Assembly: GCF_900107855.1 (NCBI RefSeq)
Contig: NZ_FNRJ01000018.1
Location: 1 to 64,000 of the forward strand
DNA length: 64,000 nucleotides
DNA from: Marinobacterium iners DSM 11526
GTDB taxonomy: Bacteria > Pseudomonadota > Gammaproteobacteria > Pseudomonadales > Balneatricaceae
Reading direction: 5' to 3'
Made by a program: the position numbers and the translations under genes. This document shows positions 6,849 to 31,720 of the stretch, one piece after another. Under the pieces are notes generated by a model. The model did not search any database and was not told the origin of the DNA. It worked only from the letters and a program-made list of their open reading frames with translations. The first letter of the stretch is position 1. The number at the start of each line of letters is the position of its first letter.

Positions 6849-7175
6849 TCAGACCGTCCCTTCACCAAACAGTTTGAGCCCCACCACACCGGCGATGATC
6901 ATGCCGATACAACCCATCCGAATCAGACCGCCCGGTTCCTGCATGAACAGGATACCGACAACCGCCAGTGCAGAGGCTCCAATCCCTGACCATACCGCAT
7001 AGGCAGTTCCCACGGGAATGGTCCGCATGGCCAACGACAGCAATCCCAGACTGATCACGATCAGCGCCGCGGTAATCAACGAAGGCCACAGCCGGGTGAA
7101 GCCGTCACTGTATTTGAGGCCGAGCGCCCAAAGGCACTCCAGTACTCCGGCGATCAGCAGATAGATCCAGCCCAT
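6849..7175 (-). CDS. SMR-family exporter of the Gdx/SugE subtype
   Basis: 108 residues, four helices, small multidrug resistance fold working as an antiparallel dimer in the inner membrane. Residues that mark the Gdx (guanidinium/H+ antiport) subtype are all present: Glu13, Trp16, Ser42, Tyr59 and Trp62, plus KYSDGFTRLWPS. Gdx proteins export guanidinium and small substituted cations. The gene starts 13 bases after dmmC, with no room for a guanidine riboswitch, so it is expressed with the dimethylamine monooxygenase. That context suggests export of a small amine or guanidinium cation linked to methylamine use (inference). Confidence 0.85.
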   Translation of the reverse strand: MGWIYLLIAGVLECLWALGLKYSDGFTRLWPSLITAALIVISLGLLSLAMRTIPVGTAYAVWSGIGASALAVVGILFMQEPGGLIRMGCIGMIIAGVVGLKLFGEGTV

Positions 7176-7188
7176 TCAACGCTCCGTT

Positions 7189-8208: not shown

Positions 8209-8219
8209 AGCTGTCGCTC

Positions 8220-9170: not shown

Positions 9171-9715
9171 TACTGCAACACCTCCTGTTCCGGCTGTTCA
9201 TCAGGATCTTCAGCATTGATCTGCACCCCTACGTAGGCACCATGCAGACGGGCAAAATGATCCCGTACCAACAACAAACGACCACACCCTGTGCAGGTGT
9301 GAGGACTGGCTGTCACCCCTTCCATAAGGGTGTAGCAATGGGTACAGAATAACCGGCGGGCAGAACTGATCGGAGGCGCCAATTGAATCTGCTCATCGAC
9401 CAGCCCGGCCGACAACGCTTGATTGCGTATGTCCCACAGAAAGCCTTCACTTCCGGCCACATACAATCGGGTGGTCACCGGCGCGTCATTCAGAATGTGT
9501 TGCAGGTAGCCCGACAGCGAGTTCGCCAGCGTACCCGGCGCATTGCCCGGTTCCGCCACCAGCCATTGTGCACCTGATTCAGCACACTGACGGTACAGCG
9601 GTTCCAGCAGGTGCTCTGCGTCTGACTCACTGACAAACAACTGTAGTCCTGCTGTCGCGACCAGCTCGGGTGGCGTATAGGTCGGACGACTCTTGATGGA
9701 TGGATCGATCTGCAT
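9170..9715 (-). CDS. dmmA: DmmA-family subunit of dimethylamine monooxygenase
   Basis: 181 residues. The N-terminal two thirds have no catalytic motif that I recognise. The C-terminal third holds a zinc-ribbon-like set of four cysteines, Cys124-x2-Cys127 and Cys141-x2-Cys144 (RLFCTHCYTL, CTGCGRLLLV), characteristic of DmmA-family proteins. Its exact role in the complex is not known to me; a metal or structural role is plausible. The ATG at 9715 is chosen because AAGGAG sits 5 bases upstream. It is the first gene of the operon dmmA-dmmB-dmmC-SMR-SDR and lies behind a sigma-54-type promoter. Confidence 0.8.
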   Translation of the reverse strand: MQIDPSIKSRPTYTPPELVATAGLQLFVSESDAEHLLEPLYRQCAESGAQWLVAEPGNAPGTLANSLSGYLQHILNDAPVTTRLYVAGSEGFLWDIRNQALSAGLVDEQIQLAPPISSARRLFCTHCYTLMEGVTASPHTCTGCGRLLLVRDHFARLHGAYVGVQINAEDPDEQPEQEVLQ

Positions 9716-9761: not shown

Positions 9762-9776
9762 TTTCTCCCTAGGAAA
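9762..9776. promoter_or_regulatory. Operator-like dyad just downstream of the dmmA -12 element
   Basis: TTTCTCCCTAGGAAA, with core TTC-N7-GAA. It begins directly after the TTGCT of the sigma-54 promoter, so it covers the expected transcription start. Similar dyads sit near the promoters of dmmD, purU and amtB. Confidence 0.5.
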
Positions 9777-9793
9777 AGCAATTTTTCTGCCAA
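9777..9793 (-). promoter_or_regulatory. Sigma-54 (-24/-12) promoter of the dmmABC operon
   Basis: Minus strand reads TTGGCAGAAAAATTGCT: GG and GC are ten bases apart, and it fits YTGGCACGRNNNTTGCW except at two or three inner positions. It lies 62 bases before the dmmA start. An enhancer-binding activator would be needed; none is encoded in the window. Confidence 0.75.
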
Positions 9794-10047
9794 AATATGA
9801 AACCAGATAAATTTCAATACCTTAGGATTATCAATCCAAAACATCTCCTCTATAAGGGCACAGCAACAGTGCATTTCCGTATCCGGATGACTCAGCACAG
9901 GGCAGATGATCATTACGGTGCAAAAGTACCCCGGTTGACCCAAAACGGGTCGCACTTCAGCTCCCCATACCCAAATATTGGCCAAGGCCCGAGCCAGTTT
10001 TGATTGGGATTATTTTTTCACTCTATAAATCATGACGTTGAGTCTTA
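9794..10047. other. Region between the divergent dmmA and dmmD sigma-54 promoters
   Basis: About 250 bases with no gene. It lies upstream of both -24/-12 promoters, so it is where enhancer-binding-protein sites and perhaps an IHF site would be expected. I see several short GTGC and GCAC words but no convincing paired activator site. Confidence 0.5.
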
Positions 10048-10064
10048 ATGGCCCGGAACTTGCT
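10048..10064 (+). promoter_or_regulatory. Sigma-54 (-24/-12) promoter of dmmD
   Basis: ATGGCCCGGAACTTGCT: GG-N10-GC spacing, with TGGC, CG and TTGCT matching the consensus. The -12 GC is 66 bases before the start codon at 10130. Confidence 0.75.
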
Positions 10065-10097
10065 TTCCTATCAGGAATAATAGTTCCTCTTCAGGAA
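10065..10097. promoter_or_regulatory. Two tandem operator-like dyads downstream of the dmmD -12 element
   Basis: TTCCTATCAGGAA (10065-10077) and TTCCTCTTCAGGAA (10084-10097), centres about two helical turns apart, covering the expected start of transcription. The first abuts the -12 element. Confidence 0.5.
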
Positions 10098-10129
10098 TTA
10101 ATTATGATCTGTTACCAATGGAGAGAAAA

Positions 10130-11269
10130 ATGGCTAATTCATGGCGTATCGCCGCACTGGCTGAAAGACATCGTGCCCTGGGCTCAAACCTTGAAGACTG
10201 GAACGGCCTGCCTACGGCATGGACCTACAGCAAAAGCGGTTACACTCTGGCCGATGAGCACGAAGCAATCCGTACCAAGGCAGGCTTGATGGATGTATCA
10301 GGCTTGAAGAAGGTGCACTACGTGGGTCCACATGCCGAGAGCCTGCTGGAGTGGGCCACCACGCGTGACATCTCCAAGCTGTATCCGGGCAAGGCGGTCT
10401 ACGCGACCATGCTGAATGAAGCCGGCAAGTTTATTGATGACTGTGTTATATACCGCATGGGCCCCAACGCTTTCATGGTTGTACATGGCACCGGCGCCGG
10501 CTATGAACGCCTGACCCAGGCGGCACTGGGCAAACAGGTTGCCGTGCTGTTTGATGACGATATGCACGATCTTTCGCTGCAAGGCCCCACTGCAGTGGAT
10601 TTCCTCGCTGAGCATATCCCCGGAATCCGGGATCTGGCCTACTTCCACCACACGCACGCACGCCTGTTCGGTTGCCCGATCACCATTTCACGCACCGGCT
10701 ATACCGGCGAGCGCGGTTACGAGATCTTCTGTAAGGCGGCCGACGCCACTACCATTTGGGACGGCATTCTGGAGCACGGCAAAGCGTTCGGCATCATTCC
10801 CTGCTCTTTCACCGCGCTCGACTGGCTGCGTACCGAAAGTTACCTGCTGTTCTATCCGTTCGATAACTCCGAGATGTACCCGTTCGAAAACGAACCGGCC
10901 GGCGATACACTTTGGGAGCTGGGCCTGGATTTCACAGTGTCCAAGGACAAGACAGAATTCTGCGGTGCTTACGAGCACTTCCGCCTGCAGGGCAAAGAGC
11001 GATTCAAGATTTTCGGTGTTTTGCTGGAAGGAAAAGAGGCCGCTTCCGAGGGTGATGAACTCTGGGCCGATGGCAAAAAGGTGGGGGTTATCACCTGCGC
11101 CATGTATTCACGCCTGACCGACAGATCAATGGCAATCGCTCGTCTTGAAGTGCCCTACGCCGAGCAGGGCACCCCGCTTCAGGTCAAAGGTAGCCTTGAG
11201 GTATCGGCCATCGCCCATACCCTGCCATTTGATGATCCCGAGAAAATAAAGCGTACCGCTAAGGGCTGA
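10130..11269 (+). CDS. GcvT-like aminomethyltransferase-family protein (DmmD-like)
   Basis: 379 residues of the GcvT/YgfZ family, resembling the tetrahydrofolate-binding T-protein of glycine cleavage. DVSGLKKVHYVGP, ISRTGYTGERGYEIF and LDWLRTESY are family landmarks. It probably traps a one-carbon unit from demethylation on tetrahydrofolate, keeping formaldehyde low; GcvT-like genes (dmmD) are known beside dmmABC, but substrate is inferred. I chose the ATG at 10130 because GGAGA sits 5 bases before it; an ATG at 10118 lacks a site. It is divergent from dmmABC with its own sigma-54 promoter. Confidence 0.8.
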   Translation: MANSWRIAALAERHRALGSNLEDWNGLPTAWTYSKSGYTLADEHEAIRTKAGLMDVSGLKKVHYVGPHAESLLEWATTRDISKLYPGKAVYATMLNEAGKFIDDCVIYRMGPNAFMVVHGTGAGYERLTQAALGKQVAVLFDDDMHDLSLQGPTAVDFLAEHIPGIRDLAYFHHTHARLFGCPITISRTGYTGERGYEIFCKAADATTIWDGILEHGKAFGIIPCSFTALDWLRTESYLLFYPFDNSEMYPFENEPAGDTLWELGLDFTVSKDKTEFCGAYEHFRLQGKERFKIFGVLLEGKEAASEGDELWADGKKVGVITCAMYSRLTDRSMAIARLEVPYAEQGTPLQVKGSLEVSAIAHTLPFDDPEKIKRTAKG

Positions 11270-11958: not shown

Positions 11959-11996
11959 AAGCACTCTCCTGATATTTGGAACAAAATCATACTATA

Positions 11997-12036: not shown

Positions 12037-12064
12037 TTATTATAGCCCTTATGGCCCTACTCAT

Positions 12065-16353: not shown

Positions 16354-17619
16354 TCACTTACTGCTCATGTGCTCCGGACCAAATTCCGGGTATGCCTGCA
16401 TGCCACATTCATGCACATCCATGCCTTCCATTTCCTCTTCTTCGCTGACACGCAGCCCCATGATCACCTTGATCACCAGCAACACTGCCATACTGGCCAG
16501 GAACATCCAGGCGAAGGTTGCTGCGGTACCGATCAACTGCCCCATGAACGTTGCATCTTCGTTGCTCAGCAGCACCGCGAAGATACCCCAGATACCGGCA
16601 GAACCATGCACCGAGATCGCACCAACAGGGTCATCCAGCTTAAGCTTGTCCAGTGCCAGTACTGAGCCCACGACCACCAGACCACCTACAGCACCGATCA
16701 AGCTGGCCAGACCTGCAGAAGGCTGAAGCGGCTCGGCGGTAATGGCAACCAGACCGGCCAGTGCACCGTTGATGGTCATGGTCAGGTCGGTTTTGCCGAA
16801 CAGGAAGCGGGCGAACAGAGCCGCGACGACCATACCTGCAGCAGCTGCAGCATTGGTGTTAACAAAGATCTTGGCCACGGCGTTGGCTTCTTCCACATTG
16901 GCGATCTTCAGCTCGGAGCCGCCGTTGAAGCCGAACCAGCCCATCCACAGGATGAACATGCCCAGCGTGGCCATCGGCAGGTTGGCACCCGGAATCGCAC
17001 GTACTTCACCGTTCTTGCCATACTTGCCCTTGCGTGGACCCACGAGGATAACCGCTGCCAGCGCTGCGGCTGCACCCGCCATGTGCACCACAACCGAGCC
17101 GGCGAAATCCTGGAAGCCAAGCTGGTCAAGGAAGCCACCGCCCCATTTCCAGTAACCTTCTACCGGATAGATCACGGCAACCATGAAAACCGAGAAGATC
17201 AGAAACGGCCACAGTTTCATGCGCTCGGCAACCGCACCGGAGACAATCGACATGGTTGCAGCGGCAAACACAGCCTGGAAGATGAAGTCAGCCATGCTGG
17301 AGTAATAGGGCGCATCATCACCACCGGCTGTAACAGACTCGGTGCTATTGTCTCCGCCCAGCAGGAAGTCGATGCCCGGAATCACCGAGCTGATCGGGTT
17401 GGCGGGATACATGACGTTGTAACCCACGACGAGATAAACAATACAAGCCACGCCGTACAGCAGCGCGTTCTTGTTGAGGATTTCCACCGTATTCTTGGCA
17501 CGCACCAAACCTGCTTCGAGCATGGCAAAACCGGCTGCCATCCACATCACCAGTGCGGTACACATCAAGAAATAGAAGGTGTCGAGGGCATAGCCCAGTT
17601 CCAGCACCATACTTTCCAT
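16354..17619 (-). CDS. amtB: Ammonium transporter AmtB
   Basis: 421 residues with eleven predicted helices. Family signatures include FWMAAGFAMLEAGLVRAKN-like text near the N-terminus (MWMAAGFAMLEAG), DFAGSVVVHMAGAAAALAA, and the pore-histidine region DDPVGAISVHGSAGIWG. Amt proteins move ammonium and also methylammonium. I chose the ATG at 17619 because AGGAGAGT precedes it; the open frame extends upstream without sense. No glnK gene adjoins. The promoter at 17716-17732 is sigma-54-like, and the downstream dyad resembles those at the methylamine operons, so this copy may serve methylamine uptake as well as nitrogen supply (inference). Confidence 0.92.
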   Translation of the reverse strand: MESMVLELGYALDTFYFLMCTALVMWMAAGFAMLEAGLVRAKNTVEILNKNALLYGVACIVYLVVGYNVMYPANPISSVIPGIDFLLGGDNSTESVTAGGDDAPYYSSMADFIFQAVFAAATMSIVSGAVAERMKLWPFLIFSVFMVAVIYPVEGYWKWGGGFLDQLGFQDFAGSVVVHMAGAAAALAAVILVGPRKGKYGKNGEVRAIPGANLPMATLGMFILWMGWFGFNGGSELKIANVEEANAVAKIFVNTNAAAAAGMVVAALFARFLFGKTDLTMTINGALAGLVAITAEPLQPSAGLASLIGAVGGLVVVGSVLALDKLKLDDPVGAISVHGSAGIWGIFAVLLSNEDATFMGQLIGTAATFAWMFLASMAVLLVIKVIMGLRVSEEEEMEGMDVHECGMQAYPEFGPEHMSSK

Positions 17620-17700
17620 TAGCACTCTCCTAACGTCTCTTGTTCGGTATCCGGTTGGGCTGAAGCGCACAAACCGGTCTTTACCAAAAGGATATTTAAT

Positions 17701-17713
17701 TTCCTGATATGAA
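17701..17713. promoter_or_regulatory. Operator-like dyad downstream of the amtB -12 element
   Basis: TTCCTGATATGAA (minus strand TTCATATCAGGAA), again TTC-N7-GAA, two bases after the TTGCT of the sigma-54 promoter. TATCAGGAA is shared exactly with the first dyad at dmmD. Confidence 0.45.
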
Positions 17714-17715
17714 TA

Positions 17716-17732
17716 AGCAAAGGACAGGCCAG
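17716..17732 (-). promoter_or_regulatory. Sigma-54 (-24/-12) promoter of amtB
   Basis: Minus strand CTGGCCTGTCCTTTGCT has GG-N10-GC spacing, with CTGGC and TTGCT matching. It lies about 97 bases before the start codon. Sigma-54 control of amtB is well known in proteobacteria. Confidence 0.7.
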
Positions 17733-19748: not shown

Positions 19749-20606
19749 TCAGTTTTTTTCCATCGCCTCGCAGGCTTCCAGCGTGTTCTGCAACAGACAG
19801 GCTATGGTCATGGGCCCCACACCACCGGGTACCGGTGTGATGGCTGACGCCTTTTCAGATGCACTGGCGAATTCAACGTCCCCGACCAGTCGGCCATCGT
19901 CCAGCCGATTGATGCCCACATCGATCACCACGGCACCGGGCTTGAGCCACTCGCCCTTGATGAACTCGGGAATTCCCACGCCAGCAATCACGATGTCGGC
20001 CGTAGCCAGTTCCGCTGGCAAGTCTTGGGTTTTGGAGTGACAAACCGTGACGGTAGCTCGAGCCATCAGCAGCTCAAGTGCCACCGGGCGGCCCACGATG
20101 TTGGAGGCCCCCACCACAACAGCCTTTTTACCTTCCGGGTTGATGCCATAGGCAGCCAGCAGACGCATGCAGCCATAGGGTGTGCAGGGGCGAAGGGTTG
20201 GAGCCTTGCCCGCCAGACGCCCCAGATTATAGGGGTGGAATCCATCCACATCCTTGGAGGGATGTATACGCTCAATGACCGACTGCACGTCGATCTGACT
20301 CGGCAGTGGCAGTTGCACCAGAATCCCGTGGATCTGATCATCCGCGTTCAGAGTATCAATCAACTCAAGCAACTGCGCCTGCGTTGTGTCCATCGGCAAG
20401 CTGTGATTGCGTGACAGAAAGCCCACTTCTTCGCAGGCCCTGACTTTGCTGCGTACATAGACCTGTGACGCCGGGTCCTGCCCGACCAGTACTACGGCAA
20501 GTCCGGGCCGTGGCTTGTTGGCGGATACACGCTCGGCAACCTTGCCTGCAATCTCCATCCGTAATCCGGCCGCTACGGCTTTGCCATCGATCAGTTGAGT
20601 GTCCAA
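19749..20606 (-). CDS. folD: FolD, methylene-THF dehydrogenase/cyclohydrolase
   Basis: 285 residues. It oxidises 5,10-methylene-THF to methenyl-THF and hydrolyses that to 10-formyl-THF. Signatures: [14 protein letters not shown] with the catalytic Lys, [28 protein letters not shown] for NADP, and [11 protein letters not shown]. The start appears to be TTG at 20606: AGGAGA lies 5 bases upstream and the protein then begins [12 protein letters not shown], the normal FolD N-terminus. As last gene of the methylamine operon it should process the methylene-THF made by MgdABCD and hand 10-formyl-THF to PurU; a housekeeping folD may exist elsewhere. Confidence 0.92.
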
Positions 20607-20679
20607 GATCGTCTCCTGAATCAAGGTTTTTAAAAGGGCGATACCCCCGCCACCCTATCATCAGGTGCAGGGCTTACTG

Positions 20680-20713
20680 TGGCCTGCGGACTCGTTTGCG
20701 AGTCAGCAGGCCA
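20680..20713. repeat. Long hairpin between mgsC and folD
   Basis: TGGCCTGC, G, GACTC, loop, GAGTC, A, GCAGGCCA: a nearly perfect 34-base stem-loop. No U-tract follows on the minus strand, so it is more likely an RNA-stability or processing element than a terminator. Confidence 0.6.
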
Positions 20714-20720
20714 TGGGTCC

Positions 20721-22049
20721 TCAGAATCCCTGGCCGGGGATCCAGCTGGTGCCCGCCAGCGGCACACGGGCCATGGCGGCGGATTCAACGGTCAGGGCAA
20801 CCAGGTCTTCCGGTTCCAAGTTGCGCAGATCGTTCTTGCCACAGGCTCGCGCCAGGGTCTGCGCTTCCAGTGTGAGCACTCGCAGGTAGTTGGCCAGACG
20901 GCGTCCCCCTTCGACCGGATCCAGTCGCTGCATCAGGTCCGGGTCCTGTGTGGAGATGCCCGCCGGGTCCTTGCCTTCCTGGTAGTCATCGTAGAAGCCG
21001 GCGGCGGAGCCGATTTTCTGGTAATCATCGCTCCATTTCGGGTCGTTGCAGCCCAGTGCCACCAGAGCAGCCGTGCCGATGGCAACGGCATCGGCGCCCA
21101 GCGCCATGCACTTGGCCACATCGGCGCCGTTACGGATACCGCCGGAGACGATCAACTGCACCTTGCGATGCATGCCCATCTCCTGCAGTGCCTGTACCGC
21201 CTGCGGAATGGCCGCCATGGTGGGGATGCCGACATGCTCGATGAACACATCCTGAGTCGCGGCGGTACCGCCCTGCATGCCGTCCACAACAATCACGTCA
21301 GCACCGGCCTTGACCGCCAGCTTCACGTCATAATAGGTACGGGTTGCACCGACCTTGATGTAAATCGGCACCTGCCAGTCGGTGATTTCACGCAGTTCCT
21401 GAATTTTGATCGCCAGATCGTCCGGGCCGGTCCAGTCCGGGTGACGACAGGCCGAGCGCTGGTCGATGCCCTTGGGCAGGTTGCGCATCTGGGCAACACG
21501 GTCGGTAATTTTCTGACCCAGCAGCATGCCGCCACCACCGGGTTTGGCACCCTGGCCCAACACCACCTCGATGGCATCCGCCTTGCGCAGGTCGTCCGGA
21601 TTCATGCCGTAGCGAGACGGCAGGTACTGATAGACCAGCTTGCTGGACTGACCGCGCTCTTCGGGGGTCATACCGCCATCACCGGTGGTGGTGGAGGTGC
21701 CCACGATGGAGGCACCTCGTCCCAGCGCCTCTTTGGCGTTGGCTGACAGGGCACCGAAGCTCATGCCGGCAATAGTCACCGGGGTTTCAATCACGATCGG
21801 CTTCTTGGCAAAGCGGGTGCCCAGGGTCACCTGGGTATTGCACTTCTCGCGATAGCCTTCCAGCGGGTAGCGCGACATGGACGCACCCAAAAACAGCAGA
21901 TCATCAAAGTGTGGCAGCTTGCGTTTGGCGCCAAAGCCGCGAATGTCATAGATGCCGGTGTCCGCCGCGCGACGGATCTCGGCCATGGTGGTACGGTCAA
22001 AGGTCGCGGACTCACGCAGGCCCGGATTGACGTTGATATCGTTGCTCAT
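20721..22049 (-). CDS. mgsC: MgsC, N-methylglutamate synthase large subunit (GltS-like FMN domain)
   Basis: 442 residues matching the FMN/Fe-S synthase domain of glutamate synthase (also annotated GlxD). ETPVTIAGMSFGALSANAKEALGRGA, GTSTTTGDGGMTPEE, KPGGGGMLLGQK and VDGMQGGTAAT are the landmark segments. With MgsA and MgsB it makes N-methylglutamate from gamma-glutamylmethylamide (or glutamate plus methylamine). The ATG at 22049 is chosen because GAGGA precedes it and the protein then starts MSNDINVNP; the open frame extends further. It is 76 bases after mgsB and 114 before folD. Confidence 0.9.
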   Translation of the reverse strand: MSNDINVNPGLRESATFDRTTMAEIRRAADTGIYDIRGFGAKRKLPHFDDLLFLGASMSRYPLEGYREKCNTQVTLGTRFAKKPIVIETPVTIAGMSFGALSANAKEALGRGASIVGTSTTTGDGGMTPEERGQSSKLVYQYLPSRYGMNPDDLRKADAIEVVLGQGAKPGGGGMLLGQKITDRVAQMRNLPKGIDQRSACRHPDWTGPDDLAIKIQELREITDWQVPIYIKVGATRTYYDVKLAVKAGADVIVVDGMQGGTAATQDVFIEHVGIPTMAAIPQAVQALQEMGMHRKVQLIVSGGIRNGADVAKCMALGADAVAIGTAALVALGCNDPKWSDDYQKIGSAAGFYDDYQEGKDPAGISTQDPDLMQRLDPVEGGRRLANYLRVLTLEAQTLARACGKNDLRNLEPEDLVALTVESAAMARVPLAGTSWIPGQGF

Positions 22050-22125
22050 AATCAAGTCCTCAAAAATCGGATTCAACGGCTGCCCGTCTCGGATATTGGG
22101 GGCAGCCATGATGGCCTGTTGATCA

Positions 22126-22809
22126 TCAATACGCGGACGCGTTGTCCACCTTGAAGTTATACAGCTGACGGGCAGACCCGTAGCGCTTGAAGCTGGACGG
22201 GTCTTCGTCCACTCCGGCACGGTTGAGCAGATCCGTCAGCTCTTCGATATGCTCGGAACGCATCTCTTTCTCGACGCAATCGGCACCCAGGGACTTCACT
22301 TCGCCCTTAACATAGATGTGCACCTCATAGAGGGAATCGCCCAGCGCTTCACCGGCATCTCCGCAGACAACCAGTGAGCCGGACTGACCCATGAAGCAGC
22401 TCATGTGGCCAACATCACCCTTGACGACAATATCGACCCCTTTCATGGAGATGCCGCAACGGGCACCGGCGTTGCCTTCGATTACCAGCAGTCCGCCCTG
22501 TGCCGTGGCACCTGCCGCCTGAGAGGCATCGCCCTTGACGCGAACCGTGCCGGACATCATGTTTTCTGCCACGCCCTGACCGGCGTTGCCGTGAATTACC
22601 ACATGCGCCTTCTTGTTCATGCCGGCACAGAAGTAGCCGGCATGACCGCGAATATCCACGGACAGGTTCTGATCAATACCGCAGGCAATGTTGTGCTGGC
22701 CTTTGGGATTCAGTACTTCAAATTCACGCTCCAGACACTCCTGTGCCTGATCATGCAGCGCCTGATTCAATTCACGGATGCTGGATTCAGCCAGATCAAT
22801 CGTTTTCAT
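22126..22809 (-). CDS. mgsB: MgsB, GXGXG subunit of N-methylglutamate synthase
   Basis: 227 residues, the right-handed beta-helix domain equal to the C-terminal GXGXG domain of glutamate synthase (GlxC-like). Repeats such as GHAGYFCAGMNKKAHVVIHG and GNAGARCGISMKG show the pattern. It is structural and helps channel ammonia or methylamine between subunits. The start is the ATG at 22809 (MKTIDLAESS), 7 bases after GAGGAGT; a TTG two codons upstream is less likely. It sits between mgsA and mgsC. Confidence 0.9.
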   Translation of the reverse strand: MKTIDLAESSIRELNQALHDQAQECLEREFEVLNPKGQHNIACGIDQNLSVDIRGHAGYFCAGMNKKAHVVIHGNAGQGVAENMMSGTVRVKGDASQAAGATAQGGLLVIEGNAGARCGISMKGVDIVVKGDVGHMSCFMGQSGSLVVCGDAGEALGDSLYEVHIYVKGEVKSLGADCVEKEMRSEHIEELTDLLNRAGVDEDPSSFKRYGSARQLYNFKVDNASAY

Positions 22810-22833
22810 ATTCAATACTCCTCAAACAGGCGC

Positions 22834-23733
22834 TTAGCTGCGTTCCCAAACATAGAAAGTGGCCGGCTCCGGTTCCCATACTCTGGCATTCTCGATGCCC
22901 GGCAGAGTGGTCAGGGCCTGGTACTCGGATGCCATCGCGACGTAGTCATCGGTTTCAGCCAGTACAGCAGGCTTGCAAGCAATCGGGTCACGCATGACCG
23001 CAAAACCGTTACGGGTGCCGATGGTGAAAGTGAAGAATCCGTCCAGGTCTTCCAGTGCATGTTCCAGCGCCTGCTTCAGACTGTCGCCTTCCTGCAGCCG
23101 CCAGGTCAGGTAACCCGCGGCGACTTCAGAATCGTTCTGGGTTTCAAATGTGATCCCTTCACGCTTGAGGTTTTCACGCAGGCGATTGTGGTTAGACAGG
23201 GAGCCGTTATGCACCAGGCACAGGTCCATGCCGGTAGAGAACGGGTGACTGCCTTCCATGGTGACAGCCGACTCGGTCGCCATGCGGGTATGGCCGATGA
23301 TATGGCTGCCTTTCATGCCTTCCAGGTTAAAGGTCTCAGCGATCTTCTCCGGCAGACCCACTTCCTTCAGGATTTCGATCGACTGGCCAACGCTCAAAAT
23401 CAGCACATCCGACGCTTCTTCAGACAGCCACTCGCGCAGTGTCGCCTCCTCGGCATGCACCTTGAACACCGCCACACTGGCGTTCTGGAACCAGCTCAAT
23501 TCCAGCTGGAGTTCGGTTTTCAGACGGGTGGCAAGTGCCTCCCAGTCATATTCTGCGTCCGGGTGACGCAGGGTCAGCTTGACCCAGCCTTCGCCCACTT
23601 CATCACCGTAGATGGCGAAGCCTGCGCTGTCCGGACCACGATCGGTCATTGCGATCAGCATCGGTTTGAACAGTTCACCAATCCGGCTTTCCAGCTCAGG
23701 ATTTTTCAGATAAAGCCCGACAATTCCACACAT
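22834..23733 (-). CDS. mgsA: MgsA, class II glutamine amidotransferase-like subunit
   Basis: 299 residues. The start at 23733 gives MCGIVGLY, placing the nucleophile Cys2 at the mature N-terminus after Met removal, as required for Ntn amidotransferases; GAGGAAT lies 7 bases upstream. GHTRMATESAVTMEGSHPF and LVHNGSLSNHNRLR follow as in GlxB and the GltS amidotransferase domain. It should release methylamine (rather than ammonia) from gamma-glutamylmethylamide for MgsC. It is 24 bases before mgsB and 27 after gmaS. Confidence 0.92.
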   Translation of the reverse strand: MCGIVGLYLKNPELESRIGELFKPMLIAMTDRGPDSAGFAIYGDEVGEGWVKLTLRHPDAEYDWEALATRLKTELQLELSWFQNASVAVFKVHAEEATLREWLSEEASDVLILSVGQSIEILKEVGLPEKIAETFNLEGMKGSHIIGHTRMATESAVTMEGSHPFSTGMDLCLVHNGSLSNHNRLRENLKREGITFETQNDSEVAAGYLTWRLQEGDSLKQALEHALEDLDGFFTFTIGTRNGFAVMRDPIACKPAVLAETDDYVAMASEYQALTTLPGIENARVWEPEPATFYVWERS

Positions 23734-23760
23734 AATCACATTCCTCGTAACAAATCCGGA

Positions 23761-25095
23761 TCAGAAAAATTCGGCGTAGTGACTGACTTCCCAGTCCGAC
23801 ACATGACGGCTGTATTCAACCCACTCGGTCCGTTTCACCTTGAGGAACTCGGACACGATTTCCTGTCCCAACGCTTCGGTGAAAACGGTGTCCGCTTCCA
23901 GCGCATCCAGCGCCTCGTTCAGGTTCTGGGGCAGGATCTCGACACCTTTCTCCTTGATCTGATCCAGAGTCAGGCTGTACAGGTTGAGGTTCATCGGCTC
24001 ACCCGGGTCCAGCTCGCGCTCGATACCATCCATGCCTGCGGCTATGATCGCTGCGGTGACCAGGTAGGGGTTACAACCGGAGTCCGGCAGTCGGAATTCC
24101 AGTCGGCCATAAGGGACTCGCACCATGGCCGAGCGGTTGTTGTCGCCGAAGCAAATGTAAGCCGGCGCCCAGGTGGCACCGGAGGCGTTGCCACCCACGA
24201 CAAGACGCTTGTAAGAGTTGACCGTCGGTGCAGCGAAGGCACAGAGTGCCGGTGCGTGCGCCAGCAGGCCCGCCGTAAAGTGATAGGCCATTTTGGACAG
24301 CCCCATGCCACTCACATCGTCCGGGTCATGGAACAGATTGCGGCCATCCTTGTCTGTGATCGACAGGTGGAAGTGCATGCCGTTACCGGTGCGATCGGAA
24401 GACGGCTTGGGCATGAAGGAACACACCATATCCAGCTCGTTGGCGATCTCGCCCGCCGCCATGCGTACAAAGGTGAAACGGTCAGCCGATGTCAGTGCAT
24501 CGCTGTAGGTGTAGTTGATCTCGAACTGGCCGTTGGCGTCTTCGTGGTCGATCTGATACACATCGAAATCAACCTGCTGCAGCGATTCAACCAGTTTTTC
24601 CAGAAACGCACGGGAACGTGACAGACCCTTGTAGTCATAGCAGGGCTTGTCCAGTACATCACTTTCATCCACTGGCATCAGGACACCCTTGTCATCACGG
24701 GTGAACAGCGAAAACTCGGGCTCCACACCGGTATTCAGCGTCCAGCCCCTGTCGGCCAGACGCGCCAACTGCTGTTTCAGAACCACACGGCTGCAATAGG
24801 GATGAGGCGCATTGCTCACATAACCGTCACAGGCAATGCGGGCATAACCCGGCTGCCAGGGTACGATGCTGAAGGTTTCCAGGTCACCGCGAGCCATGAA
24901 GTCGGGGCCATGTGGCTCCATCCCCAGTCCCCAGACAGCAAACCCGGCAAAACCGGCACCTTTTTCGACCACATCCATAAGGCAGCTGGCCGGCACCGAC
25001 TTGGTCTTGGCCACGCCGTGGATATCAACAAACTGCGCCAGCACGTACTTGATGTTGTTCTGGCTGATAATGCGTTCGATCTCTGCGGGCATCAT
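23761..25095 (-). CDS. gmaS: GmaS, gamma-glutamylmethylamide synthetase
   Basis: 444 residues of the glutamine-synthetase superfamily (group often annotated type III GS or GlnT). [27 protein letters not shown] with metal-binding glutamates, [23 protein letters not shown] and [12 protein letters not shown] are the conserved GS segments. It ligates methylamine to glutamate using ATP, the first step of methylamine use here. AGGAGGT lies 5 bases before the ATG at 25095, which overlaps the mgdD stop (ATGA). Full mgs and mgd sets on both sides make GmaS much more likely than an ordinary glutamine synthetase. Confidence 0.93.
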
Positions 25096-25592
25096 GATGC
25101 ACCTCCTGTCGTTTTTCGAGTTGCGCTGAGGTCATCAAGGACCGCGCTGAATATTTCGCTGAGATAGTGTCGGTAACTCGGATCGGCACCGATCAGCAGA
25201 CTGCCGCTTTCAATTTCGTGGTAGAGCCAGCAGTTGACGCCAGCCACTGAGGTCATTAGCCAGTTGCCGCGCTGAAGCTGGCGGAAATCGTACTGACACA
25301 GGTGTGCCATGAATGCGATCCAGTTACCCCCGGTCAGTTCGAACACGCAGTCGTAGCGGCGGAAGCACCACTCTCCCTGTGGCGCAGGAAGGGTGCCAGC
25401 AAGCATCGCCATGTACTCGTCACGTCCGGTTCGGGCCACCAGAGCGCCGGGGCGCTCTTCGGCACTCAAGACCGCCTCAGGCAACGGCAAGCCTGCCGCT
25501 GCCAGCACTGCCTTGCTGTCAGATCCGGTCAGCAGATAGCTGCTCAGTTCACGCACACCGATCTGCAGCGTGTTCGGTTGTTGTGTGTTCAT
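25092..25592 (-). CDS. mgdD: MgdD, N-methylglutamate dehydrogenase gamma-like subunit
   Basis: 166 residues of the SoxG (sarcosine oxidase gamma) family, the small GcvT-related subunit. [14 protein letters not shown] and [26 protein letters not shown]-like text mark it. It starts at 25592, sharing one base with the mgdC stop, behind GGAGGT. It is part of the heterotetramer that oxidises N-methylglutamate. Confidence 0.88.
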
Positions 25593-28501
25593 CAGGCCAC
25601 CTCCGTCAGATCAACGGTCTGACGCGCACCTTCGGCGTCATAGAAGGGAGTTGCACAGGGTTCAAGCGATACCAGTTCACCGCTGTCGACACGCACCTTG
25701 AAATCGCCTTCAGTTGCAGCCAGAGGCATGTCCACCATAGCCAGACCGATATGGCGGCCCAGGGAGGGGCTGTAGGCGATACTGGTAATGCGACCGGCGA
25801 TATCACCGTTTTCGATCAGCAAGTGGCACTCTTTCGGCCGCTCGCCGCTGTACCCCTTGGGCAGCATGAAGCCGCACAGATGTCGGTTGCAGCGCTCTTT
25901 CAACAGCGCCAGTGAAGGCTTGCCGGTAAACCAGGGCTTGGTCTTCAGCGGCACAGCCCAGGGCATGTTGGCTTCGAAAGGGTTGGTCAGGCCATCGGTG
26001 TCCTGACCGACGATGATGTGTCCCTTTTCCAGCCGCAGTACACGCTGTGCTTCAACACCGAATGGACGAATACCGTACTCGGTGCCCTTTTCCATCAGGG
26101 TGTTCCAGATCCGTTCGGCGGCATCCACCGGCAGGTGGATCTCGTAACCCAGCTCACCGACAAAGCCGACCCGAATCAGGCGCACAGGCACACCGCACAG
26201 CGTGCCTTCTCGGCAGCCCAGATAGGGAAAGTGCTCTTCGCTCAGATCGATATCGGTCAGCGGCTTAATCAGCGTGCGAGCATGGGGGCCGGCCAGGTTC
26301 ATCGCCGCCAGCGTTCCGGTGCGATTCACCAGACGAACATCCAGCCCCCACTCGATCACATGGCGTGACAGCGTACGGAACGTGGCATCGGCATGGCTGG
26401 TGGTGGCGGTAACATAGAAGCGATCTTCGGCGATGCGTCCTACAATGCCGTCGTCAACGATGACGCCGCTGTCATCCACCATCAGGGCATAACGGGTCAT
26501 GCCCAGTTTGATGTTGGACATGCGCATGGTGTAAGTGCCATCCAGCAGTTTGCCAGCGTCCGGGCCCATCACTTCGATCTTGCCCAGTGTGGACACGTCG
26601 ATCAGGCCCAGAGCCGTGCGCACCGCCTGCACTTCGCGCAGAATCGCCTGGGCACGCTCCTCGGGGCGGCCATAGAATTCAGGCCGCACCCATACCCCCG
26701 CTTCCATCATCTGAGCGCCATTGTCCAAATGCCACTGGTGCAGCGCAGTCAGACGCTCGGGACGGAAGCGACGACCGGCCAGTGCCTGTACCGGCACCGG
26801 ATGGAACATGGGACGCGCTGTGGTGGAGCCGGTCTGATCGATGCTGCGACCCGTAACGGCGGCCAGCACACGAATGCCGTTCATGTTGGCATGCTTGCCC
26901 TGACTCGGGCCCATACCTACTGTGGAGAAACGCTTCATCAGCTCGATGTTGTCGAAGCCTTCCTTCGCCGCGTTGATCAGATCCTTGAGCTGCAGATCTT
27001 CGTCGAAATCCACGAAGTTCTTGCCTTTCGGGTGCTTCACGATCGGCCAGGGGTGGGAGTGCGCCACGCTGTCGCGGAAGGCACTCAACGCCGCCGTAAC
27101 CGGCTGGCCTTTGAGCCAGGCAGCCGCCTCGGTTGCTGCACGCTCTCCATCGGCCAGGCGCTGCTGCAGCGTAAACGCACCGTTCAGGCGACCGCAGGCG
27201 AAGATCCCGTTCGGCAGCTCCTGTGGCAGGAGCTGCTCCAGGGTAAAGTCATAGGCCAGACGGCCACCGGCCTGATACAACAACTGTGAAGCCGGTGCCC
27301 AGCCGACGCTCATCAACAGCAGGTCAACGTCAAACTCTCGCGCCTGCGTGGCATCACACTGTTCGCCATCAAAAGGCGCCACCACAACACGCTTAAGCTG
27401 GCCCTTGCCCTGCGCCTCATGGACCGCATGCCGTTCCAGCACCGGTACCTTGAGCGCCACCAGCTCGTCTGCCCAGGCACCGCGACCGCTGGCGGAGCCC
27501 ATGTCGATCACCGCCGACACCTGAACGCCGGCCTTGATCAGATCGAGCGCAGCGCGGTAGCCCTCGCTGTTGGCGGTCAGTACCGCCGCACGCTGCCCCG
27601 GCTTGACCGCGTAACGCGCGATCAAGCGCTGGGCACCCGACGCCATCATCACACCGGGCAGGTCGTTGTTGCGAAAGACCGCTGGCTGCTCCATCACACC
27701 GGTGGCGCTGATTACGGCGCGTGCACGCATCTTGACGATGCCATTCGGGCCCACAAGCGGCACGTAGTGATCGGTGTACCAGCCGCAGGCCAGATGCGCC
27801 GGCAACACCCGTATATTGGCGTGAGACTGGACCTTCTGTTTAAGACTGGACCGCACCGGCTCCGCTTCTGCCTCGTTCACCAGCTGATAGTCCAGGCTGC
27901 CGCCGATCTGCGAGTTTTCATCCACCAGCACCACATCCAGCCCCTGTTCGGCTGCGCTCAGCGCAGCCTGCATGCCGGATGCACCGGCACCGATCACCAA
28001 CAGATCGCAGAAACCGTAGGATTTGGGCTGACGGCGCACACTCCAGCCGGTATCAATACGCCCCAGGCCCGCTTTTTCGCGAATCAGGCGCTCCCACATC
28101 GGGAACAGTTTTTTCGGTTTGTGAAATGCCTTGTAGTAGAAGCCCACCGGCAGAAAGCCCGACAGCTTCTCGATAATCCGGTCCCGGTCGTTCTCAAGGC
28201 TGCCGTTCACGTTGCAGGCGCTCAGCACCATACCCTCGGTCAAAGGCGTTACATCGCCGCGGATATTGGGCTCTTCACTGCTCTGGAACAGCGCGTTAAC
28301 GTCATGGTTGGCCAGTGTTACGGCCCCACGCGGGCGGTGATACTTGAAGCTGCGGCCCAGCAGGGTCTGGCCCGCCGCCAGCAGTGCGGAGGTGATGCTG
28401 TCGCCGCGGTAACCGGTATAACGACGGCCTTCAAATTCAAAGTCACAGAGCGCCGAGCGGTCGATCCACTCCAGCGGCTGCTGATCAAGCCGGGATGTCA
28501 T
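25592..28501 (-). CDS. mgdC: MgdC, N-methylglutamate dehydrogenase alpha-like subunit (NAD/THF)
   Basis: 969 residues with the SoxA layout: a small N-terminal ferredoxin-like domain (FEGRRYTGYRGDSITSALL), a nucleotide-binding dehydrogenase region with LLVIGAGASGMQAALSAAEQ, and a C-terminal GcvT-type folate domain (about 600-960; KIEVMGPDAGKLLDGTYTMR, LRLEKGHIIVGQDTDGLT). It takes the methyl carbon of N-methylglutamate to methylene-THF. The ATG at 28501 follows GGAGGAGGT closely, so the longer frame upstream is not used. It overlaps mgdB by 17 bases. Confidence 0.92.
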   Translation of the reverse strand: MTSRLDQQPLEWIDRSALCDFEFEGRRYTGYRGDSITSALLAAGQTLLGRSFKYHRPRGAVTLANHDVNALFQSSEEPNIRGDVTPLTEGMVLSACNVNGSLENDRDRIIEKLSGFLPVGFYYKAFHKPKKLFPMWERLIREKAGLGRIDTGWSVRRQPKSYGFCDLLVIGAGASGMQAALSAAEQGLDVVLVDENSQIGGSLDYQLVNEAEAEPVRSSLKQKVQSHANIRVLPAHLACGWYTDHYVPLVGPNGIVKMRARAVISATGVMEQPAVFRNNDLPGVMMASGAQRLIARYAVKPGQRAAVLTANSEGYRAALDLIKAGVQVSAVIDMGSASGRGAWADELVALKVPVLERHAVHEAQGKGQLKRVVVAPFDGEQCDATQAREFDVDLLLMSVGWAPASQLLYQAGGRLAYDFTLEQLLPQELPNGIFACGRLNGAFTLQQRLADGERAATEAAAWLKGQPVTAALSAFRDSVAHSHPWPIVKHPKGKNFVDFDEDLQLKDLINAAKEGFDNIELMKRFSTVGMGPSQGKHANMNGIRVLAAVTGRSIDQTGSTTARPMFHPVPVQALAGRRFRPERLTALHQWHLDNGAQMMEAGVWVRPEFYGRPEERAQAILREVQAVRTALGLIDVSTLGKIEVMGPDAGKLLDGTYTMRMSNIKLGMTRYALMVDDSGVIVDDGIVGRIAEDRFYVTATTSHADATFRTLSRHVIEWGLDVRLVNRTGTLAAMNLAGPHARTLIKPLTDIDLSEEHFPYLGCREGTLCGVPVRLIRVGFVGELGYEIHLPVDAAERIWNTLMEKGTEYGIRPFGVEAQRVLRLEKGHIIVGQDTDGLTNPFEANMPWAVPLKTKPWFTGKPSLALLKERCNRHLCGFMLPKGYSGERPKECHLLIENGDIAGRITSIAYSPSLGRHIGLAMVDMPLAATEGDFKVRVDSGELVSLEPCATPFYDAEGARQTVDLTEVA

Positions 28502-28751
28502 AGCGCACCTCCTCCAGGTCGATAAACCGAAGCACTTCATCCTTCAGGGTGTCGCGCTCCATCACATACCAGCGCCCGGTCGGACGGTGGTACCACCATT
28601 CGCGCAGCAGGCCCGGTGCACCGTTTCTGTTGAATACATACTCGGCCCAGGTGATCTCATCCGCGTCCATCGGTGGCTTGCGAACCTCTCCGACATAGTC
28701 GAACTCGCTGATCGGCCGACGGCCTATTACGGGACAATCAAATACTTTCAT
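28485..28751 (-). CDS. mgdB: MgdB, N-methylglutamate dehydrogenase delta-like subunit
   Basis: 88 residues of the SoxD family, the smallest subunit of heterotetrameric sarcosine oxidase-like enzymes. It keeps GRRPISEFDYVGE and EYVFNRNGAPGLLREWWYHRPTG-type text. SoxD proteins usually have several zinc cysteines near the N-terminus; here only Cys6 remains, so zinc binding is doubtful. The start at 28751 has GAGGAG upstream; the longer frame is rejected because it would run back into mgdA. Confidence 0.88.
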   Translation of the reverse strand: MKVFDCPVIGRRPISEFDYVGEVRKPPMDADEITWAEYVFNRNGAPGLLREWWYHRPTGRWYVMERDTLKDEVLRFIDLEEVRYDIPA

Positions 28752-28761
28752 CGCCCTCTCC

Positions 28762-30003
28762 TCAGTGCCCGACCGATGCTGCACCCTTCTCGCCGACCAG
28801 ATCGAAGTCGGCGAAACGGGACAGTCGGAAGGGTTCAATCAGTTCATGGTTGCGGTCGTTGGCCAGCGTCCAGGCCATTGTTTTGCCGCTGACGGGAGTG
28901 GCCTTGAAGCCCCAGGTCCCCCAGCCGGCATCAAGGTAGAAACCCTCAATCGGGGTCTTACCCATGATCGGGGCAAAGTCGGGGGTGATATCACTCATTC
29001 CGGCCCACTGGCGCATCACTTTCATGCGGCTCATGAACGGGAACAGGTCGATCATTTTGTCGGTCAGCCCTTCAACGAAATCAAAGCTGGAGCGGGTGGA
29101 GTGCAACACCGATGGATCGACCGAAGCCCCCATCACCATTTCGCCACGCGAGGACTGGCTGACATAGACATGCAGGCTGCCGGATACGACGATGGTGTCC
29201 ATGAACGGCTTCACCGGCTCGGACACACAGGCCTGCAGCGGGTAGATCTCTATCGGGGTCTGCAACCCCAGCATGGAGGTGATGCGCGGGGTGGAACCGG
29301 CCACCATGGATACCACCTTGTTACAGCTGACAAAGCCGCGGTCGGTTTCAACACCGGTTACCCTGTCGCCCTGGGTACGGATGGCAGTGACACGGGTTTT
29401 CTGATGAATCTCCACACCGCGGTTGTAGGCGCCCCGAGCGTAGCCCCAGGCAACGGCATCATGACGTGCAACCGCGCCCGGCGCATGATAGAGCGCGCCC
29501 ATCACCGGGTTGTGGCCGGCACAGTCGAGGTCCATGTAGGGCACTTCTTTGGCGATGAAATCGCGATCCACCACTTCGGAATCGATGCCGTGATGCTTGT
29601 TTACCTCGGCACGCCAGCGCATGGTGCGCAGAGCACTGTCAGTGTGCGCCAGCGTGAAGTGGCCTCGTGTTGAGTAGAAGATGTTGAGGTCAAAATCGTC
29701 AGACAGATCCTCAAACAGCTTCAGGCTGGTGTCGTAAAACTTCACCCCTTCAGGCGTGAGGTAGTTGGAACGCACGATGGTGGTATTGCGGCCGGTATTG
29801 CCGCCACCGATGTACCCTTGTTCCAGCACCGCCACATCCGTGATGCCGTGCTCCTTGGCGAGGTAGTACGCACAGGCCATGCCGTGACCACCACCACCGA
29901 TGATCACCACGTCATAATGTGATTTCAGTGGCCGGGTTTCCGGAAAGAACCGGGGCTCATTGTGAGACGACGTGAAGCCATGTTTAAGCAGGCGCCAGGG
30001 CAT
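28762..30003 (-). CDS. mgdA: MgdA, N-methylglutamate dehydrogenase beta-like subunit (FAD)
   Basis: 413 residues of the DAO/SoxB family. YDVVIIGGGGHGMACAYYLA (about 30-49) is the FAD motif; GGGNTGRNTTIVRSNY and the His in GAVARHDAVAWGYA match SoxB, where a nearby His holds FMN covalently. It carries the amine oxidation site. It starts at 30003 with TAGGAG upstream, 9 bases after purU, and is followed 10 bases later by mgdB. Confidence 0.92.
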   Translation of the reverse strand: MPWRLLKHGFTSSHNEPRFFPETRPLKSHYDVVIIGGGGHGMACAYYLAKEHGITDVAVLEQGYIGGGNTGRNTTIVRSNYLTPEGVKFYDTSLKLFEDLSDDFDLNIFYSTRGHFTLAHTDSALRTMRWRAEVNKHHGIDSEVVDRDFIAKEVPYMDLDCAGHNPVMGALYHAPGAVARHDAVAWGYARGAYNRGVEIHQKTRVTAIRTQGDRVTGVETDRGFVSCNKVVSMVAGSTPRITSMLGLQTPIEIYPLQACVSEPVKPFMDTIVVSGSLHVYVSQSSRGEMVMGASVDPSVLHSTRSSFDFVEGLTDKMIDLFPFMSRMKVMRQWAGMSDITPDFAPIMGKTPIEGFYLDAGWGTWGFKATPVSGKTMAWTLANDRNHELIEPFRLSRFADFDLVGEKGAASVGH

Positions 30004-30012: not shown

Positions 30013-30885
30013 CTAGGCAAAGACAACGGTTTTATTGCCGTGTACCAGTACACGGTCTTCGATGTGGTAGCGCAGGCCGCGTGCCAACACCGACTTCTCC
30101 ACGTCCTTGCCCAACCGGACCATATCCGCAGTGGTGTTGTGGTGGGTAACGCGATGCACGTCCTGCTCAATGATCGGCCCGGCATCAAGCTCCGAGGTGA
30201 CGTAGTGACAGGTGGCACCGATCTGTTTCACGCCGCGCGCGGCGGCCTGATGGTATGGGCGTGCGCCAATGAAGGAGGGCAGGAAGCTGTGGTGGATATT
30301 GATGATCCGGCCCGGATACAGCTCACACAGTTCTTCGGGAATGATCTGCATGTATTTAGCCAGCACAATGGCATCGGCTTCCGCCGCCGCGATCTGTTCA
30401 CGCACGGCACGGAAATGCGGTTCCTTGTTGCTCATATCGACCGGGACGTGTACATAGGGAATACCGTGCCACTCGACATAGGAGCGCAGGTCGTCATGGT
30501 TGGAGATGACACAGGGAATATCGATGTTCATCTCCCCCGAACGCCAGCGGTACAACAGATCCGACAGTGCATGCGCTTCCTTTGATACCATCAGGACCAC
30601 GCGCTTGCGCTGGGAGGAGTCAGTGATCTGCCAGTGCATGCCGAACGTCTCGCCCAGCGGAGCGAATTTGGCTTTCAGTTCTTCCAGCCCAAATGGAAGC
30701 GAATCGGCCAGTACTTCGTACCGCATGAAGAACTGGCAGTTCTCTGTATCAGCGAACTGATGTGCCTCGCTGATCCAGCCACTGTGAGAGGCGAAGAACT
30801 GGGTAACGGCTGCTACAATCCCGACCCGATCAGGGCAGGAGACGGTCAGACGGAATTTGCGTGCATGTTGGGTTTCGATTGCCAT
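30013..30885 (-). CDS. purU: PurU, formyltetrahydrofolate deformylase
   Basis: 290 residues: an N-terminal ACT domain (LTVSCPDRVGIVAAVTQFF) and a formyltransferase-like hydrolase domain with NIHHSFLPSFIGA, GVKQIGATCHYVT and LDAGPIIEQD. It releases formate from 10-formyl-THF. As first gene of the operon purU-mgdABCD-gmaS-mgsABC-folD it completes the route from methylene-THF to formate with FolD, regenerating THF during methylamine oxidation. Transcription starts from the sigma-54-type promoter at 30935-30951. Confidence 0.93.
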   Translation of the reverse strand: MAIETQHARKFRLTVSCPDRVGIVAAVTQFFASHSGWISEAHQFADTENCQFFMRYEVLADSLPFGLEELKAKFAPLGETFGMHWQITDSSQRKRVVLMVSKEAHALSDLLYRWRSGEMNIDIPCVISNHDDLRSYVEWHGIPYVHVPVDMSNKEPHFRAVREQIAAAEADAIVLAKYMQIIPEELCELYPGRIINIHHSFLPSFIGARPYHQAAARGVKQIGATCHYVTSELDAGPIIEQDVHRVTHHNTTADMVRLGKDVEKSVLARGLRYHIEDRVLVHGNKTVVFA

Positions 30886-30899: not shown

Positions 30900-30934
30900 T
30901 TTCTTTAAAGGAAAGTTTATTTCCTTAAGGTAAA
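30900..30934. promoter_or_regulatory. Two tandem operator-like dyads at the purU transcription start
   Basis: TTTCTTTAAAGGAAA (30900-30914) and TTTCCTTAAGGTAAA (30920-30934), exactly 20 bases apart. The second touches the -12 element of the purU promoter. The divergent XRE-cupin protein is the obvious candidate to bind them. Confidence 0.55.
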
Positions 30935-30951
30935 AGCAATCTCTTTGCCAA
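30935..30951 (-). promoter_or_regulatory. Sigma-54 (-24/-12) promoter of the N-methylglutamate operon
   Basis: Minus strand TTGGCAAAGAGATTGCT, GG-N10-GC, 15 of the fixed consensus positions kept except two. Its flanks are also alike to those of the dmmA promoter, including TTTATTTC at the same distance on the other strand. Confidence 0.78.
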
Positions 30952-31126
30952 CTTTGCTCTTCAGGCAAAAAAATTGCGCACAGCAAGGCTAAGGCATTGT
31001 TTTAGCTTATTATGTGAAAATAAATATACTGTCAGGAATATTAAGCTATTCAAGCCTCACTCATGGTTGCACGCAGAAAAACGCACCATTGGTGAACAGA
31101 ACGCACAAGAAAGGAGCATGACGCCC

Positions 31127-31720
31127 ATGAGCGATGCCGATAACCCGAAACTGAAGCTTGAGCAGTACATCGCCATGCGCGTGAAAAGCAAACGTACCGA
31201 GCAGAGCCTGAAGATCACCGATGTTGCCCGCATCGCAGGGCTTAGTCAGGGTATGGTGAGCAAGATTGAAAACGCGCAGGTATCCACCAGCCTGGATACG
31301 CTGAGTCGATTGTGTGATGCCATTGGGCTGCCGATTTCACAGCTGTTTACCGACTATGACCGCCCCGAGGGTACGGCACAGCTGACCAAGGCAGGTGAAG
31401 GGATGGAGGTGGTGCGCCGCGGGACCGAGAAAGGCCACACTTACCAACTGCTCAGCTACCACCGCGGCAAGAAGAAAAGCTACGAGCCGTTTCTGATCAC
31501 CATGGATGATGCCAGCGAGGTGTTCCCGACCTTTTCTCACCCCGGTCAGGAGTTCATCTACCTGCTGCAGGGACAGATTCGCTACCGGCACGGCAACCAT
31601 CTGTACGACATGGAGCCCGGGGATGCACTTTCATTCGATGCAGAGATTCCCCACGGGCCTGAAGAGTTGCTGGAGGTTCCGATCCAGCTGCTGTCGATCA
31701 TTCATTATGATGACCAGTAG
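31127..31720 (+). CDS. XRE-family regulator with C-terminal cupin domain
   Basis: 197 residues: an N-terminal Cro/C1 helix-turn-helix (LKITDVARIAGLSQGMVSKIENAQVSTSLDTLSRL, about 22-57) and a C-terminal cupin (FSHPGQEFIYLLQGQIRYR, MEPGDALSFDAEIPHGPEEL). Such proteins sense small metabolites through the cupin and usually repress nearby catabolic genes. I chose the ATG at 31127: AAGGAG lies 10 bases before it, but only 1 base before the ATG at 31118. It is divergent from the methylamine operon, making it the likely local regulator, probably answering to methylamine or an intermediate. Confidence 0.85.
   Translation: MSDADNPKLKLEQYIAMRVKSKRTEQSLKITDVARIAGLSQGMVSKIENAQVSTSLDTLSRLCDAIGLPISQLFTDYDRPEGTAQLTKAGEGMEVVRRGTEKGHTYQLLSYHRGKKKSYEPFLITMDDASEVFPTFSHPGQEFIYLLQGQIRYRHGNHLYDMEPGDALSFDAEIPHGPEELLEVPIQLLSIIHYDDQ

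Follow-up and report, generated by a model that had tools for sequence, protein, structure and literature searches.

A sigma-54 promoter followed by evenly spaced predicted repressor sites is kept at methylated-amine genes of marine and soil gammaproteobacteria

Results

Many marine and soil gammaproteobacteria keep, at genes for the use of methylated amines, a sigma-54 (nitrogen-starvation) promoter with two predicted repressor sites at even spacing behind it. We found this unit in a 64,000-nucleotide stretch of Marinobacterium iners DSM 11526 (the window), and computed its promoter class, its dyads and their fixed geometry, the membership of the regulon and the co-occurrence of the unit with a gene for an XRE-cupin transcription factor. 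We think it probable that these features reflect a dual-control methylated-amine regulon, in which sigma-54 and NtrC would activate transcription and the XRE-cupin protein would repress it until released by a ligand.

Four promoters in the window

The promoter of the N-methylglutamate (NMG) operon is the 17-mer TTGGCAAAGAGATTGCT (30951-30935, minus strand), a sigma-54 (RpoN) -24/-12 promoter located 50 nt before the purU ATG, with two mismatches to the consensus YTGGCACGRNNNTTGCW and with the GG and the GC intact. Directly downstream are TTACCTTAAGGAA and TTCCTTTAAAGAA, both dyads of the TTCCYNNNRGGAA type, whose start-to-start spacing is exactly 20 bp. A first-pass annotation of this DNA had described a purU promoter with two dyads exactly 20 bases apart behind it, and this was borne out (30951-30901, minus strand). 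The genes following purU carry the domains DAO, SoxD, SO_alpha/GCV_T, Gln-synt_C, GATase, GXGXG, Glu_synthase and THF_DHG_CYH. The features of this region are:

19749..30003, minus strand: mgdABCD-gmaS-mgsABC-folD, NMG pathway (domain matches; gene order kept in relatives)
30013..30885, minus strand: purU, first gene of the operon (TIGR00655)
30901..30913, minus strand: distal predicted operator dyad TTCCTTTAAAGAA, 20 bp from the proximal dyad
30921..30933, minus strand: proximal predicted operator dyad TTACCTTAAGGAA, about -9 to +4 as counted from the inferred start site
30935..30951, minus strand: sigma-54 promoter (-24/-12) TTGGCAAAGAGATTGCT of the purU-mgdABCD-gmaS-mgsABC-folD operon (consensus; kept in 67 XRE-divergent loci)
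31010..31047, plus strand: dyad region ahead of the XRE-cupin gene, with ATACTGTCAGGAA at 31026-31038 (E 0.0003)
31082..31098, minus strand: NtrC-like box TGTTCACCAATGGTGCG, left half weak, 147 bp upstream of the purU promoter
31127..31720, plus strand: XRE-cupin transcription factor P0001, candidate repressor (HTH_3 and Cupin_2)

At sigma-54 promoters the start site lies about 12 nt downstream of the -12 element, which puts the two dyads at about -9 to +4 and about +12 to +24, respectively. If transcribed, the TTCCYNNNRGGAA dyads could give short stems, and might thus be hairpins of the leader RNA instead of DNA sites; however, the start site inferred from the -12 element falls within the first dyad, whose left half would remain untranscribed, and RNAalifold predicted no stem in the dyads from 36 sequences, making this reading very improbable.

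Sigma-54 matches with both the GG and the GC intact stand ahead of four genes of the window, purU, dmmA, gcvT and amt. The architecture that the first-pass annotation had ascribed to the dmmA and NMG operons alike is present in full at the NMG operon, gcvT and amt, but dmmA has only the promoter and the first dyad, with TTACACCACTAAT at the 20-bp position. The ungapped 36-base alignment of the purU region with 9758-9793 gave 26 identities, close to the 27 or so claimed, and nowhere else in the window, on either strand, does it reach 23. The corresponding features are:

6849..9715, minus strand: dmmA, reductase, HODM-alpha-like subunit and SugE-like SMR transporter (domain and family profiles)
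9763..9775, minus strand: single predicted operator dyad TTCCTAGGGAGAA of dmmA, second position decayed
9777..9793, minus strand: sigma-54 promoter of the dmm (dimethylamine monooxygenase) operon (consensus and profile search)
9857..9873, no strand assigned: NtrC-like box GGCACAGCAACAGTGCA, common to the divergent dmmA and gcvT promoters (box scan)
10048..10064, plus strand: sigma-54 promoter of the GcvT-like gene (dmmD-type; consensus)
10065..10097, plus strand: tandem predicted operator dyads TTCCTATCAGGAA / TCCTCTTCAGGAA of gcvT (dyad-pair scan)
10118..11269, plus strand: GcvT-like folate-dependent protein, relative of the C-terminal half of TMAO demethylase (domain and family profiles)
16354..17622, minus strand: amt, ammonium transporter, marine subtype (TIGR03644, 650 bits)
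17681..17713, minus strand: tandem predicted operator dyads of amt (dyad-pair scan and profile)
17716..17732, minus strand: sigma-54 promoter of amt (consensus)

AT-rich DNA often contains single degenerate dyads, and the likeness between the purU and dmmA promoters could in principle be a chance product of AT-rich intergenic sequence. The spacing of the dyads speaks against this: across the 354 kb of 16 loci, 22 pairs with 3 mismatches or fewer are spaced by 20 bp, and each of the other spacings between 13 and 59 accounts for only 0-5. The whole 3.9-Mb genome has only three pairs at 20 bp, all of them in the window (purU, gcvT and amt), and one match to a reversed control pattern. We also searched the genome with a sequence-only profile made from 36 promoters divergent to XRE-cupin genes. 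Its training set included the purU promoter of the window, which scored 52 bits; the remaining matches, all from outside that set, were dmmA (26.3 bits), gcvT (24.6), amt (21.6), then an amt paralog on contig C36 (19.7) and the region upstream of the XRE-cupin gene (17.1-17.2). Since the best match in sampled genomes lacking an XRE-cupin ortholog reached up to 19.5 bits, the 19.7- and 17.1-bit matches rest on position as much as on score. The spacing, the genome-wide rarity and the profile matches outside the training set exclude a chance origin, which, with the conservation described below, leaves it a negligible probability.

The XRE-cupin protein and its gene

P0001 has an N-terminal XRE-type HTH and a C-terminal cupin, as in XRE-cupin transcription factors. 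The closest fold to its structural model, which is of moderate quality (pTM 0.48), is 1y9q, an HTH_3-family regulator. PuuR was its best NCBIfam match and was rejected (44.1 bits for a cut-off of 211); TmaR was rejected too, as the protein consists of HTH_3 and Cupin_2 with no AraC-type HTH (PF00165). Palindromic sites lie beside the gene, making its product a candidate binder. The site list of the first-pass annotation lacked one of them, the dyad region ahead of the XRE-cupin gene itself, which is probably an autoregulatory operator. Across 64 loci, dyads proximal to the XRE-cupin gene numbered 77 for 0.98 expected, an expectation which, like that for the NtrC boxes of the window, derives from shuffles preserving base composition only.

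Conservation across relatives

Orthologs of the XRE-cupin protein (E < 1e-80) are present in 12 of 57 relatives, and gmaS scoring above 700 bits occurs in 11 of these 12 and in no other. Among 321 gammaproteobacterial genomes, the XRE-cupin gene (threshold E < 1e-60) was found in 8 of the 9 with gmaS above 600 bits and in 3 of the 312 others, a co-occurrence with a Fisher p of 6e-13 that carries no phylogenetic correction, related genomes not being independent.

A scan of GTDB genomes for relatives of the XRE-cupin protein provided 80 best loci, from Marinobacterium, Nitrincola, Amphritea, Marinomonas, Oceanobacter, Neptuniibacter, Thalassolituus, Halochromatium and Pseudomonas, and also from Cellvibrionaceae. 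In 67 of the 80 the sigma-54 and dyad unit stands divergent to the XRE-cupin gene in a fixed register: the distance between the starts of the sigma-54 17-mer and the first dyad is 17 nt in 48 of 64 unique loci and 18 nt in the other 16. The spacing of the -24 GG and the -12 GC, and their context, are kept in 63 aligned promoters. The gene behind the XRE-divergent unit varies (purU, mgdA, gmaS or dmmA), so the unit tracks the regulator and the pathway and not one particular gene.

Ammonium transporter genes served as specificity controls. The amt of the glnK-amtB type has no dyad pair (at least 7 mismatches) in 22 genomes with and without the regulator, most of which have good sigma-54 matches upstream of it. 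Among the amt copies linked to the cluster and the amt2 genes of regulator-positive genomes, 14 of 18 show a pair with at most 5 mismatches. No dyad pair was found at amt2 in three regulator-negative genomes. Two XRE-positive genomes depart from the pattern, G015 (described below) and G007. The promoter is decayed in G007, where no sigma-54 match is recognisable and the dyad pair is degenerate; loss of rpoN was considered as a cause and rejected, as G007 has the gene. In other genera (loci L119-L198) extra dyads are seen upstream of the -24 element, with preferred distances of 18, 38 and 78-88 bp from the sigma-54 element, and the promoter may there be flanked by operators on both sides.

From the neighbourhood and the co-occurrence we infer that the XRE-cupin protein is the binder of the dyads. 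Alternatively, a regulator encoded elsewhere could bind them, with the XRE-cupin protein a mere neighbour or in control of something else. Two observations fit that alternative. Orthologs of 52-56% identity that adjoin NMG genes mostly have no recognisable unit, so that the motif or the partner changes there, and G015 (its contig matches Nitrincola schmidtii; locus L058) has an XRE-cupin gene 79% identical with no gmaS match, no NMG genes and no dyad pair near it. Against it stand the divergent position of the unit in most of the best loci together with the extra dyads ahead of the XRE-cupin gene, the absence of a dyad pair from gmaS of G369, a genome without the regulator, and the fact that the TetR gene of the window (11347-11964) is no general neighbour of the unit. 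We therefore regard a binder encoded elsewhere as unlikely, and retain the XRE-cupin protein as the predicted one.

Reach of the regulon

Comparative genomics supports the proposal of the first-pass annotation that dimethylamine and methylamine use form one regulon with the XRE-cupin protein as candidate repressor. The predicted regulon reaches further than that proposal and also takes in amt and, in trans, an amt paralog, and in relatives tmm and purU-folD. The paralog of the window's own genome (amt2, G000:C36:8166-12204, equal to L247:2167-6205) follows a TMAO-demethylase-like gene, which scores 1077.5 bits, just below the cut-off of 1100; its promoter has a sigma-54 site and the first dyad, and it is probably a regulon member. 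Several other genomes have a profile or pattern match at amt2. Matches also precede both purU2 and tmm in G028, where tmm is identified as trimethylamine monooxygenase by NF058570 (839 bits), and in G011, and a gcvT in trans in G032.

Predicted operator dyads lie upstream of tmm in two relatives, at L053:4398-4432 and L250:9870-9908. In G033, whose XRE-cupin contig matches Neptuniibacter pectenicola, a dyad pair with no clear sigma-54 match precedes fdhD and a formate dehydrogenase-like gene (L110:13199-13231), and would tie the disposal of formate to the regulon. A small cupin-like gene opens the dmm operon of G001 behind the sigma-54 and dyad unit (L047:13975-14355), displacing dmmA from first place.

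The activator

Sigma-54 promoters require an AAA+ activator. The XRE-cupin protein, named as candidate repressor in the first-pass annotation, keeps that place, but it cannot be the sole control; an enhancer-binding activator is required as well. The genome has one copy of rpoN and 14 strong matches to sigma-54 activators. None of the latter is encoded in the window, and a dedicated activator there was rejected. The genome also contains glnA-ntrB-ntrC (NtrC by TIGR01818, 773 bits), with an NtrC-type box and a sigma-54 site at glnA. TGCAC-N7-GTGCA boxes occur upstream of the promoters in 50 of 64 loci and are mostly 120-190 bp away; no other spacing is found in more than 20 loci, and no scrambled half-site in more than 8. 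These spacing-specific boxes, the presence of ntrBC and the same box at glnA make NtrC the likely activator and the best candidate.

Another sigma-54 enhancer-binding protein could take its place and leave the XRE-cupin part of the model unchanged. The number of activators in the genome allows for it, the NtrC-like boxes at the NMG promoter of the window are weak (3-4 mismatches), and an ntrC mutant of P. stutzeri showed enhanced activity on methylamine (PMC8443478), a result that calls for caution in generalising the role of NtrC. Given the strongly preferred GCAC-N7-GTGC spacing, the box of the same type at glnA and the lack of an activator gene in the window, we consider a different activator unlikely and keep NtrC in the model.

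Discussion

We propose that the regulon would work as follows. Under nitrogen limitation, phosphorylated NtrC on the upstream boxes would drive open-complex formation by RpoN polymerase. As long as no methylated amine is metabolised, dimers of the XRE-cupin protein would occupy the two dyads, whose 20-bp distance is about two helical turns, and would span the melting and early transcribed regions. The bound dyads would cover about -9 to +25 and block promoter opening or escape. A ligand of the cupin domain (the amine, gamma-glutamylmethylamide or N-methylglutamate) would then release the repressor. The dyads ahead of its own gene indicate that the XRE-cupin protein would repress that gene too. 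Of these, gamma-glutamylmethylamide and N-methylglutamate are reasonable candidates, given that Roseobacters respond to a catabolite beyond methylamine (PMC13390433). With somewhat less assurance than for dual control as such, we favour the view that the XRE-cupin protein is an undescribed master regulator of methylated-amine catabolism, from TMA to formate and ammonium, in Gammaproteobacteria, forming an AND gate in which NtrC and sigma-54 would sense nitrogen hunger, and two repressor dimers, in invariant register with the start site, the substrate.

Repression is favoured by the location of the dyads across the start site, where they would be expected to hinder polymerase, and by the behaviour of characterised XRE-cupin proteins, which are local palindrome-binding repressors, including those of P. 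aeruginosa with determined regulons (PMC7901475). The protein could instead be a co-activator or anti-repressor: TmaR, known to be the master regulator of this pathway in Roseobacters, acts positively (PMC13390433), and the extra dyads of other genera lie upstream of the -24 element. It is not an AAA+ protein, however, the activator type that sigma-54 promoters need, and we hold a positive role to be quite improbable and repression to be the better reading.

Pseudomonas PauR, PsdR, ErfA and PA0535 (PMC7901475) resemble the protein studied here in having HTH_3 followed by Cupin_2, adjacent targets, palindromic sites and a site beside their own gene, and PauR also in serving a gamma-glutamylation pathway. 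They differ in that the predicted targets here are methylated-amine genes, the dyad is another one, and the dyads stand in tandem, in fixed register behind a sigma-54 promoter; neither 'methyl' nor 'RpoN' occurs in the main text of that paper. The proposed local repressor would thus be coupled to sigma-54 promoters via an unusually rigid tandem operator. NtrC-sigma-54 control of glnA and glnK-amtB has the same -24/-12 promoter and upstream GCAC-N7-GTGC boxes, the latter being weak at the NMG promoter of the window. The predicted substrate-specific operator pair over the start site is an addition here and is absent at amtB-type promoters.

The Escherichia coli repressor PuuR acts on a gamma-glutamyl pathway that starts with a glutamine-synthetase-like enzyme, and GmaS is glutamine-synthetase-like too. 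That PuuR senses putrescine is cited in PMC7901475. The substrates differ here, and P0001 falls below the PuuR cut-off.

Methylated amines form an important fraction of the dissolved organic nitrogen of the sea. The control of their use has been elucidated for Roseobacters: the AraC-type activator TmaR of Ruegeria pomeroyi, encoded beside dmm and mgd, is the master regulator of TMA, DMA and MMA catabolism and binds all promoters of the pathway plus its own (PMC13390433). The role that we propose for the XRE-cupin protein would be that of TmaR, but the two proteins are unrelated, and the TmaR paper makes no mention of XRE, cupin, sigma54, NtrC or palindromes. We found no link between XRE-cupin proteins and methylamine in the open-access literature, where papers on XRE-cupin proteins and RpoN are about other pathways, no mention of methylamine, methylglutamate or XRE in a 2025 sigma-54 regulon survey, and no regulator of the methylated-amine pathway in marine or soil gammaproteobacteria in the searchable literature. 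For a broad set of Gammaproteobacteria, culturable Marinobacterium, Marinomonas and Pseudomonas among them, we predict another regulator, another class of promoter and another operator. This prediction is precise, with named operators and a 20-bp register, and the DNA signature can be used to find regulon members (amt paralogs, tmm, purU-folD) without expression data.

Several neighbours of these genes recur. The SugE-like SMR transporter gene (6849-7175) adjoins the dimethylamine monooxygenase genes in many dmm-bearing relatives. A TetR regulator and an RND efflux pair (11347-16281) separate the dmm and gcvT genes from amt, and such a set is also near the XRE-cupin gene in two relatives. Finally, GGDEF/EAL genes lie on both sides of the cluster (17848-19641 and 31757-35600), and in other Marinobacterium a GGDEF/EAL gene adjoins the XRE-cupin gene.
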